From a virus, in IMG/VR virus record IMGVR_UViG_3300021142_000179, positions 1 to 24,021 of that record: DNA of 24,021 nucleotides. One strand, given 5' to 3'. Each line of letters begins with the position of its first letter. Position 1 is the stretch's first letter. The notes below the pieces were generated by a model that did not search any database, was not told the origin of the DNA, and worked only from the letters and a program-made list of their open reading frames with translations. Position numbers and translations under genes: made by a program. Below, one piece after another: positions 2,542 to 7,031 of the stretch.

Positions 2542-2550
2542 CGTTCAATG

Positions 2551-2558
2551 AAAGGAAA
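2551..2558 (+). promoter_or_regulatory. Ribosome binding site fixing the start at 2563
   Basis: AAAGGAAA sits five bases before the ATG at 2563 and directly after the alternative ATG at 2548. This spacing favours 2563 (MPSVSTKQHN) as the start. Confidence 0.55.
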
Positions 2559-2562
2559 TCAA

Positions 2563-3750
2563 ATGCCTTCTGTTTCAACTAAGCAGCACAACCTCATGGA
2601 AGCCGTGGCACACAATCCCGGCTTTGCCAAAAAGGTTGGCATCCCACAGAAGGTGGGTAAACATTTCCATGAGGCGGACAAGATGAAAGGCAAGAAATTC
2701 GCGATGGGCGGCCCCGCGGCACCGGGAACGCAAGCCGGAGGTCCGGGGGCGGCTATGTTAATGTCAGGCGCTCCGATTCCGACGGGCGGATTGATGCCCG
2801 GATTTTCGGGGTCTATGGCGGGAAGAGGTCCGGGCGGCCCTAACGCTTTACCGGGGATGCGCCCCCCTATGATGCGTCCCGGCATGGATCGGGACCGTAT
2901 GCACATGAAAAAAGGTGGACATGTGAAACCGAATGAATTGAAAGGCAAGGCGAAGGAAACGAAGTCCATCGCCGCTGCCGAAATGAAAGCCCTGAAGCGC
3001 GGTCACGCGCCGAAGGAAGTTATGGAACACGAAAAAGCGGAGCATAAGGCTATGGGCTACAAGAAAGGCGGTCACGTCGAAACCCCGAAGAAGGGTTTTG
3101 CGATGGCTGAGACCAAAGGTGGTCGCAAGCCACCGCACAGTCACAAGGGCGAAGAAGGCGATACCAAGCTGAAGGGCTTCGGTATGGGCAGGGGCGAAGG
3201 CAAGGGTCGTAAAGTCACCAAGGCTGAAAAGCCGAAAGACGAGACCAAGACCAAAGGCTTTGCCATGAAGAAGGGCGGTCACGTTAAGCACCACGCCAAA
3301 GGTGGCGCTGCCAAGGCTGCTCACAAGCCGAAGCCGAAAGGCAAGATCAATCCGGCGGCACTTGCTGCCATGATGGGGCCTCCGGGCGGCGCTCCTCCGA
3401 TGGGTGGCGCTCCTGATATGGGTGGCGGCGCTCCTCCGATGGGTGGCGGCGCTCCTCCGATGGGTGGCGCTCCGGGGATGAAGAAGGGTGGGCATATTAG
3501 CCACCACCATCACCACCACTACGCCAAGGGCGGTCACGTCAAGAAAGAGCCGGAATCGGGGCCGTACATGGTGCGTAAAGTCCACAAGGCGGCTGAAAAG
3601 CCGCACCGGAAGGAAGACGGCGTTGCACAGCGTGGACACACCCGTGGCAAAGAAGTGAGAATGGCCTCGGGCGGTCATGTTGGCTCGCATCCGTCTCGTC
3701 GCGCTGACGGTGTTGCAGAGCGCGGTCACACCACTTGCAAGATTCGTTAA
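2563..3750 (+). CDS. Basic KGGH-repeat protein with natural His6
   Basis: A 395-residue low-complexity protein starting MPSVSTKQHNLMEAVAHNPG, an N-terminus common in small phage proteins. Six copies of a [K/S]GGH[V/I] motif punctuate the chain, mostly as KKGGHV. Between them lie Lys/Glu-rich helical stretches (KAKETKSIAAAEMKALK), Met/Pro/Gly-rich stretches and a GGGAPPM tandem repeat. A run of six histidines, ISHHHHHHYAKGG, is encoded at 3502-3519. The end has two copies of an [E/A]DGVA[Q/E]RGHT motif, related to the ADGxAxRGxT endings seen in many aquatic phage proteins. The protein is strongly positive, so binding DNA, RNA, metal or a virion partner are all possible. No catalytic fold is visible. 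The Shine-Dalgarno of the next gene overlaps its stop codon. Confidence 0.7.
   Translation: MPSVSTKQHNLMEAVAHNPGFAKKVGIPQKVGKHFHEADKMKGKKFAMGGPAAPGTQAGGPGAAMLMSGAPIPTGGLMPGFSGSMAGRGPGGPNALPGMRPPMMRPGMDRDRMHMKKGGHVKPNELKGKAKETKSIAAAEMKALKRGHAPKEVMEHEKAEHKAMGYKKGGHVETPKKGFAMAETKGGRKPPHSHKGEEGDTKLKGFGMGRGEGKGRKVTKAEKPKDETKTKGFAMKKGGHVKHHAKGGAAKAAHKPKPKGKINPAALAAMMGPPGGAPPMGGAPDMGGGAPPMGGGAPPMGGAPGMKKGGHISHHHHHHYAKGGHVKKEPESGPYMVRKVHKAAEKPHRKEDGVAQRGHTRGKEVRMASGGHVGSHPSRRADGVAERGHTTCKIR
3386..3473 (+). repeat. Tandem GGGAPPM-coding repeat
   Basis: The 18-base unit GCTCCTCCGATGGGTGGC occurs at 3391, 3430 and 3451, with a degenerate copy between the first two. The last two copies are exactly 21 bases apart. 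They code for Gly/Ala/Pro/Met repeats in the KGGH protein, a tract likely to vary by slippage. Confidence 0.8.
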
Positions 3751-3754
3751 GGAG
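3749..3754 (+). promoter_or_regulatory. Strong Shine-Dalgarno overlapping the upstream stop
   Basis: AAGGAG overlaps the TAA at 3748-3750 and lies seven bases before the ATG at 3762. It selects that ATG rather than the in-frame ATG at 3735 inside the previous gene. Confidence 0.75.
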
Positions 3755-3761
3755 TATCCAA

Positions 3762-3992
3762 ATGTCGAAGCACGGTCATCACGGTCATCTCAAGCCTCAT
3801 CATTCCAAGGGTCATCACGGTCCACACGGCTCGCACGAGCATGTGACCCATGAGCATCACCCGGAGCATCATGAGCCGAAGCACCACACCCATCACATGA
3901 CGCCGCACCACATCCATCACAAGCATGGCGGTCATGTTGATTCGCACATGCCGCATCACGAACACATCCGTAAGCACTATCACGGGAAGTAA
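3762..3992 (+). CDS. Extreme histidine-rich small protein
   Basis: A 76-residue protein starting MSKHGHHGHLKPHH. I count 32 histidines (42%), spread evenly in HH, HxH and HxxH spacing together with Lys, Glu, Pro and Gly. There are no Cys or Trp and hardly any hydrophobic residues, so a stable hydrophobic core is unlikely. One KHGGHV unit links it to the KGGH-repeat protein upstream, suggesting common origin or a common partner. The strong ribosome binding site points to good expression. Known His-rich proteins bind Zn, Ni, Cu or heme, or become charged at low pH; which applies here is unknown. It is a real gene by context, since it fills the space exactly between coupled neighbours. Confidence 0.7.
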   Translation: MSKHGHHGHLKPHHSKGHHGPHGSHEHVTHEHHPEHHEPKHHTHHMTPHHIHHKHGGHVDSHMPHHEHIRKHYHGK

Positions 3993-3995
3993 GTG

Positions 3996-4358
3996 ATGAA
4001 AGCTTCACGGGGCATGGGAGCCATGAATCCCAGTAAAGTCCCTACCCCCCGTACTGGGAGGAAGGTCCATGCCCCCGTGAAGGCTTGTTCTGGTGGACGT
4101 ATGGCGAAGGGCGGGTTGGCATGGACTCGCAAAGAGGGGAAAAACCCCAAAGGCGGGCTGAATGCCAAGGGACGAGCCTCGTATAACAAGGCTCATGGCG
4201 CACACTTGAAGGCTCCCGCGCCGCATCCGAAAACCAAAAAGGATGCCGGTAGGCGTAAATCTTTTTGTGCCAGAATGTCAGGTATGCCGGGGCCTATGAA
4301 AGACGATAAAGGAAGGCCGACACGTAAAGCGCTGTCGTTACGAGCATGGAACTGTTAA
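3996..4358 (+). CDS. DUF6321-like basic phage protein
   Basis: A 120-residue protein with start chosen at ATG 3996 ([16 protein letters not shown], a frequent phage N-terminus); a GTG at 3993 is possible. The C-terminal half carries the conserved block [19 protein letters not shown], then [17 protein letters not shown], and a terminal RAWNC. This is the pattern I associate with DUF6321, a family of unknown function found in phage structural regions. Lys and Arg are abundant and there are three Cys residues, one of them the last residue. It is the third basic protein in a row here. Its end overlaps the endonuclease gene by 13 bases. Confidence 0.75.
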
Positions 4359-4753
4359 CTTGCACAAAATGTAAGCAAGAAAAACCCGGTACTCCGGAGT
4401 TTTTCCCATTGCATAACAAAAAGATCAATGGGCTAGACAGTTGGTGCCGGAAGTGTCGTAGCACCTATCGTTCAGAAATACGCCGGGGGAATTTTCGCGA
4501 TGTGATTTCTGACGAAGATTTGAAAGATCTTATTCAGACCACTAAAGAGTGTGTTATTTGCGGTAGTGATGATAGCCCTCTTGTGGTTGATCATGACCAT
4601 AAGACGGGGCAGGTTAGGGGCTTACTATGCAGCCATTGCAATCGCGGACTGGGGCATTTTAGAGATAGTCCTGAGTTGCTGGAATTTGCGCGAATGTATC
4701 TGTTAGCGCAGAAAGACGATCCCGAGTGGCTTAAATACTCTGAGGCATCCTAA
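4346..4753 (+). CDS. Endonuclease VII-like Holliday junction resolvase
   Basis: A 135-residue protein with a clear recombination endonuclease VII domain. C69/C72 and C95/C98 would bind structural zinc. The block [20 protein letters not shown] contains D82, H83, H85 and N99, equivalent to T4 gp49 catalytic residues D40, H41, H43 and N62. An extra N-terminal CxxC pair (C6/C9 with C34/C37) suggests a second zinc-binding module, common in phage versions of this family. Known role: cutting branched DNA so it can be packaged, although small stand-alone copies can also act as homing-type nucleases. It is AT-richer than its neighbours. Its start lies inside the preceding gene and its stop overlaps the next ATG (TAATG). 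Confidence 0.9.
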
Positions 4754-5481
4754 TGACCGCTACACTGTCCGGGCTTACAACGTTTAATCCGAACCTCAAC
4801 GACGTTGTTGAGGAGGCGTTTGAGCGTTGTGGCGCAGAGTTACGCTCGGGATATGACCTGCGTACGGCTACGCGCAGTCTGAATCTGATGTTCATGGACT
4901 GGGCCAATCGCGGCGTCAATCTGTGGACGATGGATCTGTCGTATCAACAGGTGCTGACTTCGGGCGTTGCGACCTACACGGTTCCGTCCGATACGGTGGA
5001 CTTGCTCGACCATGTGATCCGTACAGGGTCTGGGACGACGCAGCAGGACATCAACATCACGCGCATCTCCAGTTCGACCTACCTCATGATCCCCAACAAG
5101 ACGGCGACAGGCCGTCCGATTCAGGTGTGGATCAATCGGTTGAGCGGTCAGACGGCGGCGGGTGGTAGCACTACAACATACGCGCCCACGATCACGGTTT
5201 GGCCTACACCAGACAATTCTACGACATATACGTTCGTAGCGACGCGGCTGCGGCGTATTCAGGATGCGGGAACAGGTCTCAACATTCAGGACATGTCTTT
5301 CCGGTTCTGGCCCGCGATGTGTTCGGGTCTGGCCTACTACTTGTCTATGAAGATCACCGGGGCTGAGTCACGTACGCAGGTTCTTAAGATGGCGTACGAC
5401 GAGGATTGGCAACGCGCGGCAGACGAAGACCGCGAGAAGGCGGCGATCCGGTTTGTTCCACGTGAAACATTCCTACGGTGA
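4753..5481 (+). CDS. Putative connector/tail-completion virion protein
   Basis: A 242-residue protein starting [20 protein letters not shown]. The N-terminal 55 residues are helical (EEAFERCG...TATRSLNLMFMDWANRG), followed by a beta region (YQQVLTSGVATYTVPSDTVD) and a helical C-terminus (YDEDWQRAADEDREKA) ending FVPRETFLR. A helix bundle plus beta insertion fits the general layout of tail-tube/adaptor proteins such as T7 gp11. Homologues with this opening are common in aquatic podovirus contigs, where they lie close to an SU10-type adaptor as here. The exact place in the virion is inferred. Its ATG overlaps the stop of the endonuclease gene. Confidence 0.65.
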   Translation: MTATLSGLTTFNPNLNDVVEEAFERCGAELRSGYDLRTATRSLNLMFMDWANRGVNLWTMDLSYQQVLTSGVATYTVPSDTVDLLDHVIRTGSGTTQQDINITRISSSTYLMIPNKTATGRPIQVWINRLSGQTAAGGSTTTYAPTITVWPTPDNSTTYTFVATRLRRIQDAGTGLNIQDMSFRFWPAMCSGLAYYLSMKITGAESRTQVLKMAYDEDWQRAADEDREKAAIRFVPRETFLR

Positions 5482-5874: not shown

Positions 5875-6024
5875 ATGAAGAAGCACGACAAGCATCACGA
5901 CGGCAAGAAGCACATGGCGGCGGGTGGTGTCACTGGCGAAGCCATGAAGAAGTATGGGCGCAATCTCGCCCGTGCGATGAACCAGAAAGCCGCGTCGCAT
6001 AAGAGCGGCGGTCGGGGGCGGTAA
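5875..6024 (+). CDS. Tiny basic protein, unknown function
   Basis: A 49-residue protein starting MKKHDKHHDGKKHMAAGG and ending KSGGRGR. It is rich in Lys, His and Arg, with a central helical segment (AMKKYGRNLARAMNQ). AGGAGAG at 5864-5870, overlapping the upstream TAG stop, gives it a good ribosome binding site, and its stop overlaps the next ATG (TAATG). Short proteins with the K.GRN.ARA.NQ signature are frequent in aquatic phage structural regions. It resembles the His/Lys-rich cluster at 2563-4358 in composition. Function unknown. Confidence 0.65.
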   Translation: MKKHDKHHDGKKHMAAGGVTGEAMKKYGRNLARAMNQKAASHKSGGRGR

Positions 6025-6332: not shown

Positions 6333-7031
6333 ATGCAGGTCATCTACAGCACGTCGTCGTCTGCGACGAACAACTTGTACACGATGATTCAGAACTACTG
6401 TGAATCGTCGGAAGCGTCGTTCGTTGCGAACATACCGAACTTTGTACAGTTAGCGGAAGAGCGGATCTATAACTCTGTTCAGCTTCCTGTCATTCGACAG
6501 AACGCGACGGGTACGATGACTGCGGGCAATCAGTATCTCCAGTTGCCTTCCACGGTCGGCGGTGTGCCGGTGTCTTGGCTGTCGATCTTCTCGGTCGCGG
6601 TCATCAACCCGAACAACATCGCGGGTAACATCAGTCAGGCGTTCTTGCTCGACAAGGACGTGAACTTCGTTCGCCAGTCGTATCCAGACCCTACGATCAC
6701 CGGTACGCCGCAGCACTATGGCGTGTTTGACTCCAGTACGCTGATTCTTGGCCCTACGCCGGATCAGAACTACGCGGTCGAGATGCACTACTACGGTTAC
6801 CCTGCGTCCATCGTGACGGCAACCAATACATGGTTGGGCAATAACTTCGGTGAAGTATTGCTGTACGGTGCGGTGCGTGAAGGATACGTCTACCTGAAGG
6901 GTGAGACGGACATGGCACAGAAGTACGACCAGATGTATCAGGAAGGCATGGCGCTGCTCAAGCAGCTTGGCGATGGCAAAGACCGTCAGGACGCGTATCG
7001 CTCCGGACAGGTTAGGGTCAAAGTACAATGA
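6333..7031 (+). CDS. SU10-type head-tail adaptor protein
   Basis: A 232-residue protein. Features match the SU10 adaptor family: an N-terminal helix region with FVQLAEERIYNSVQLPVIRQ, a strand-rich part with QYLQLPSTVGG, a central LDKDVNFVRQSYPD, then STLILGPTPDQNYAVEMHYY followed by GNNFGEVLLYGAVREGYVYL and a C-terminal helix (YDQMYQEGMALLKQLGDG). Adaptors form a dodecameric ring under the portal and connect it to the short tail. This is the main evidence for a podovirus. The start at 6333 is the only sensible ATG. The stop overlaps the next gene by four bases (ATGA). Confidence 0.8.
   Translation: MQVIYSTSSSATNNLYTMIQNYCESSEASFVANIPNFVQLAEERIYNSVQLPVIRQNATGTMTAGNQYLQLPSTVGGVPVSWLSIFSVAVINPNNIAGNISQAFLLDKDVNFVRQSYPDPTITGTPQHYGVFDSSTLILGPTPDQNYAVEMHYYGYPASIVTATNTWLGNNFGEVLLYGAVREGYVYLKGETDMAQKYDQMYQEGMALLKQLGDGKDRQDAYRSGQVRVKVQ

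Follow-up and report, generated by a model that had tools for sequence, protein, structure and literature searches.

Histidine-rich gene and its neighbourhood

The stretch of viral DNA analysed here (24,021 nucleotides, referred to as the window) carries a short gene for a protein dominated by histidine, together with the following features, all on the plus strand:

2548..3750, +, KGGH protein: a PSxS three-helix domain (Met at 2563), then a Lys/Gly/His-rich body, a His6 run and KGG motifs
3749..3754, +, Shine-Dalgarno sequence AAGGAG of the histidine-rich gene, 7 nt before the ATG and overlapping the TAA of the upstream gene
3762..3992, +, histidine-rich protein gene; frame, histidine pattern and C-terminal motif kept in relatives
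3993..4358, +, DUF6321 protein with a fused RGMG-type N-terminus (Pfam PF19846, E 3.4e-29)
4753..5481, +, SU10/Pam1-type neck adaptor (PF24175, E 1.1e-5, just under its cut-off; matches the annotated DSL-LC04 adaptor)
5875..6024, +, third small basic gene, 49 aa, MKKHDKHHDGKKHM...GRNLARAMNQ, recognised by family comparison and His-enriched in the clade described below
6333..7031, +, second SU10-type adaptor (PF24175, E 2.2e-20)

Translation of positions 3762-3992 gives 76 residues and a stop codon, with 32 histidines (42.1%) and no cysteine, the same values that an earlier note on this DNA had counted. The longest histidine run is two, there are 10 HH dyads, and no gap between histidines exceeds three residues; among composition-preserving shuffles, about 0.3% match the protein in run length, about 0.7% in HH dyads and about 0.15% in gap length. 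The description of these histidines as evenly distributed is apt for the window protein, each measure being matched by fewer than 1% of shuffles, and the dispersion, strong in the window's own subtype, is weaker in the other tested subtypes, which have HHH. In 200 first-order Markov versions of the window the maximum was 12 histidines per open 76-codon stretch (mean 8.4), and outside the family the highest histidine content among 4,300 open reading frames of at least 50 aa in the fetched loci was 22%. To call the protein extreme even among histidine-rich proteins was nonetheless too strong, since Hpn of Helicobacter pylori is 46.7% histidine (PMC5312948). The Shine-Dalgarno sequence that had been reported is present, and GGAG-like sites also precede the start in those relatives whose start regions were read.

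The KGGH gene lies upstream of the histidine-rich gene in the window and the DUF6321 gene downstream; in some relatives a second KGG-type protein sits between KGGH and the histidine-rich protein. In a 60,992-base relative the gene belongs to a long run of co-directional genes, downstream of terminase, portal and major capsid genes and upstream of the adaptors; the DNA polymerase and helicase genes are on the opposite strand. The gene has a late-block position. Its placement "among virion genes" in the earlier note holds for this terminase, portal, capsid and adaptor block as a whole, but not for the immediate neighbours, which have no assigned function.

Several observations concern these neighbours in their own right. 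The N-terminal domain of KGGH matches phrog_16759 (E 2.5e-21), and AlphaFold2 predicts a three-helix bundle for it (pLDDT 77). This PSxS domain (window 2563-2690) makes up a whole protein of about 50-60 aa in phiKZ-like Pseudomonas jumbo phages and in Stenotrophomonas phage BUCT555; Serratia jumbo phages have it too, and in PHROGs it stands at the N-terminus of virion proteins. Foldseek found nothing significant for the domain (best E 2.5); helix-turn-helix or homeodomain DNA-binding domains fill many of the top rows, a lead only, as any three-helix bundle may give these. Further along the KGGH gene, a GGAPPMGG-type tandem repeat (window 3384-3473), roughly four 21-base copies long, has a different copy number in the nearly identical L002. 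On the other side of the histidine-rich gene, close phages carry two alternative versions of the DUF6321 C-terminus, one of them being APQPEGGPRRD...NDPNSRINKSL (window 4200-4358; L008 4346-4708; L032 3565-3819), which suggests an exchange of that end. An endonuclease VII gene at window 4346-4753 (PF02945, E 5.5e-18), between the DUF6321 gene and the adaptor, looks like the insertion of a mobile endonuclease, because the adaptor directly follows the DUF6321 gene in L008, L042 and L044; in the window the DUF6321 end was perhaps exchanged together with it. A literature search found no paper on DUF6321.

Conservation and distribution of the family

Scans of IMG/VR recovered relatives of the histidine-rich gene in 34 uncultured viral contigs, amounting to 15 distinct sequences of 54-79 aa with 36-43% histidine. 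Their place is after a "KGG" protein rich in Lys, Gly and His and before the neck-adaptor gene, and conservation beside the KGGH protein, which the earlier note had proposed to check, is seen in all listed carriers whose upstream sequence is long enough. Conservation is strongest in the C-terminal GGHVxSHxPHHEH(I/V)RKHxHGK, and the N-terminal half varies in length.

The earlier note had reasoned that loss of the frame or of the histidine pattern, or neutral substitution rates, would point to a non-coding or neutral tract. The reading frame is intact in all of the histidine-rich relatives and the pattern is kept. Compared with its two closest relatives, the window gene has dN/dS values of 0.14 and 0.16, and the other listed histidine-rich pairs with unsaturated dS range from 0.04 to 0.33. 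CAC and CAT are mixed in 11 of the 14 gap-free columns that are always histidine, which argues that the amino acid, rather than a DNA repeat, is what selection acts on. We found no long tandem array inside the reading frame, and with the mixed histidine codons this led us to reject an origin by slippage or tandem repetition. The gene is real, conserved and under purifying selection.

The protein had no match in Pfam, PHROGs, NCBIfam, the PDB, INPHARED or GTDB genome contigs, with the proviso that BLAST low-complexity filtering may hide matches, and the family is undescribed in the family libraries, PDB and INPHARED searched. Nor did a literature search find a paper on a histidine-rich phage virion protein.

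We used the neck adaptor at 4753..5481 as the marker for synteny and for a tree. All carriers of the histidine-rich gene fall in one clade of that tree (22 rows, support 84/91), in which two members, L048 and L052, had no such gene that we could find. The L079 type lies at the base of the carrier clade on a long branch. After its KGG protein and before its adaptor it encodes a 60-aa protein with 18% histidine and 39% identity. A family profile built without L079 ranks this protein first outside the family, weakly (12.2 bits, E 0.064), and 0 or 2 of 3000 shuffles scored as well, depending on bias correction. It is probably a homologue of the histidine-rich family, an assignment weak by sequence and drawn mainly from position and clade.

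By adaptor, the nearest annotated phages are DSL-LC04 and Pelagibacter phage HTVC023P. No member of the histidine-rich family was found upstream of the adaptor in either, and both carry small basic proteins at that place. A variable island of such proteins precedes the adaptor in L050-L118, and its modules (PSxS, RGMG, DUF6321, and KGG with a terminal GKTKGK) are shared and reshuffled between phages. The only adaptor matches in genome contigs were to a Dehalococcoidia MAG (61% identity) and one bin, too distant for host assignment. The MAG locus (L139, CP070693.1 198846-211547) lies in a sequence labelled chromosome and is either an integrated phage or a phage contig that entered the MAG during assembly.

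Histidine in place of lysine

Histidine enrichment extends to the proteins around the gene. The histidine content of KGG protein bodies is 6-12% in carriers, 5% for the L079 type and 0-3% where the phage lacks the histidine-rich gene. Where KKYAKGG and GKT are common in the KGG proteins of other phages, carriers have HHYAKGG and GHT. The two residues before YA(K/R)GG-type motifs are HH at 19 of 21 carrier sites and 0 of 42 non-carrier sites, KK being the most frequent pair at the latter (12), and in (K/R)G-x-T-type motifs x is histidine at 38 of 54 carrier sites as against lysine at 94 of 108 non-carrier sites; these counts are drawn from related sequences and describe the pattern without being independent events. 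A similar but weaker trend is seen in the third small gene, with 4-10% histidine in the clade compared with 3% histidine and 31% lysine in the L079 type. The adaptors contain almost no histidine (0% in the clade), which argues against a genome-wide amino-acid bias. On these sequence comparisons, the enrichment appears to be coordinated across the neighbouring basic proteins of carriers. The earlier note had offered metal chelation, a pH-switched polycation or a DNA coat as roles; of these the pattern favours metal binding or a conditional charge and speaks less for a DNA coat of fixed charge.

In some phages the two kinds of sequence also share one reading frame. In L015/L016 and in L134 the histidine-rich sequence continues in frame from a KGG-type protein; the junction retains a Shine-Dalgarno sequence and an ATG, so that the free protein could still be made. 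L015/L016 and L134 are sisters in the adaptor tree (99/90), and we therefore count this arrangement as one event.

Possible roles and known counterparts

AlphaFold2 gave the histidine-rich protein a mean pLDDT of 58.7 and a pTM of 0.16, with no fold except an 8-residue helix; the alignment comprised 13 low-complexity sequences, and its shallowness may itself cause the poor confidence. The model is consistent with an intrinsically disordered protein. Its calculated net charge is +3.7 at pH 7.5 and +33 at pH 5, whereas a lysine-rich protein from the same interval of another phage has a calculated charge of about +16 throughout.

We put at roughly one in three the probability that this is a late, disordered accessory protein acting with its KGG-type neighbours as a conditional polyelectrolyte, the mechanism being one that we infer. 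At cytoplasmic pH the protein would be almost neutral, at about +4. Mild acid could then protonate its histidines, or a divalent metal such as zinc could bridge them, and the resulting strongly positive or cross-linked protein would bind a polyanion, most simply the phage DNA, or its KGG partner. Histidine at lysine sites in several small basic proteins would likewise turn a fixed positive charge into a switchable one. The ligand may be that of the lysine-rich proteins of relatives, with DNA or an acidic protein surface as the simplest candidates. A precedent exists in the histidine region of vertebrate histidine-rich glycoprotein (HRG), which is switched by protons or zinc within a nucleic-acid-binding protein (PMC5372734). 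Phage assembly takes place in a near-neutral cytoplasm, so the charge switch would be off there unless metal were bound. The most economical reading of the sequences is that the clade uses switchable charge where its relatives use fixed charge. Tentatively, one may go further and suppose that a single clade rewrote its late basic proteins from lysine to histidine, replacing the fixed charge of its relatives by a pH- or metal-gated polycation system of which the ~40% histidine protein would be the dedicated effector.

The main rival, possible but somewhat doubtful, is metal sequestration or storage, in which an Hpn-like, histidine-only chelator of several divalent ions would keep metal levels buffered during infection, supply a metalloenzyme or carry metal in the virion. 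The composition and the HH, HxH and HxxH spacing would suit such a role; Hpn itself binds about five nickel ions and is multimeric (PMC5312948), and for phage tail fibres carrying HxH sites iron binding is known or proposed (PMC11705849). Yet the protein has neither cysteine nor an acidic cluster, no metal-handling gene was recognised among the scanned part of the proteins of a near-complete relative, and storage alone leaves histidine at the lysine sites of KGG proteins unexplained. The arrangement of L015/L016 and L134, in which the histidine-rich sequence follows a KGG-type protein in frame, is what a structural tail or glue joining KGG proteins to the neck or head might look like, with histidine serving for stacking and hydrogen bonding instead of switching. 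The gene's place in the late block directly upstream of the adaptor genes, and the match of the PSxS domain of the KGG protein to head and virion PHROGs, speak for such a linker, but L048, L052 and other phages with the same adaptor have no histidine-rich gene, so that it does not belong to the core of the neck, and we regard this role as unlikely.

A cationic peptide acting in lysis or on the envelope, acid-active like histatins or the HRG histidine region, would help release or attack the envelope from within. The acid-dependent antibacterial activity of that HRG region (PMC5372734) lends the idea some appeal, as does a short protein at 2290-2541, just upstream of the KGGH gene, whose hydrophobic N-terminal segment looks holin-like by eye. 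The supposed holin has no family match, however, and no signal peptide or membrane segment is visible in the histidine-rich protein, and we consider a lytic role improbable. Least credible of all is a neutral low-complexity tract or spurious reading frame: the composition is indeed of low complexity and the N-terminal half differs in length among relatives, but the low dN/dS values, the mixed histidine codons, the intact frames and the lack of a long tandem array inside the reading frame leave very little room for it.

Rather than a sequence oddity, the protein's extreme composition is a clade-wide trait of these phages that selection maintains, and the findings point towards a coordinated use of histidine for lysine across neighbouring phage proteins that is unusual and directly testable. 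If histidine does provide conditional charge or metal bridging, these phages would be a natural case in which polyelectrolytes gated by pH or metal serve virion assembly, genome handling or release, and possibly a case of phage-borne metal as well.

Small, histidine-rich, probably disordered proteins are a kind known from other organisms. Like Hpn, which has 28 histidines (46.7%, and hence about 60 aa), the phage protein is small and has a histidine content of the same order. Hpn, however, has histidine runs of six and seven and two EEGCC motifs (PMC5312948), whereas the longest run is two in the window protein and three in the tested relatives, and cysteine is absent. The HRG histidine region is likewise rich in both histidine and proline, and its charge is changed by protons or zinc, as the calculation above predicts for the phage protein with pH; it has tandem GHHPH repeats within a large plasma glycoprotein, a motif (as defined in PMC5372734) present in none of the listed family sequences, and the phage proteins are free and 54-79 aa long. 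The HxH tail fibres, such as the T4 gp37 tip and that of Alteromonas phage R22Y (PMC11705849), share the HxH spacing and have histidine-based metal sites in phage structural genes, but they are folded trimers with few HxH sites, and the 76-aa protein has far more histidine, is probably disordered and matches nothing in Pfam or PHROGs. The KGG-type Lys/Gly-rich small proteins occupy the same interval upstream of the adaptor and are likewise basic and of low complexity, with GG motifs; unlike them, the histidine-rich protein has no PSxS domain or terminal G-(K/H)-T, contains a single KHGGHV, and has histidine in place of lysine as its main residue.
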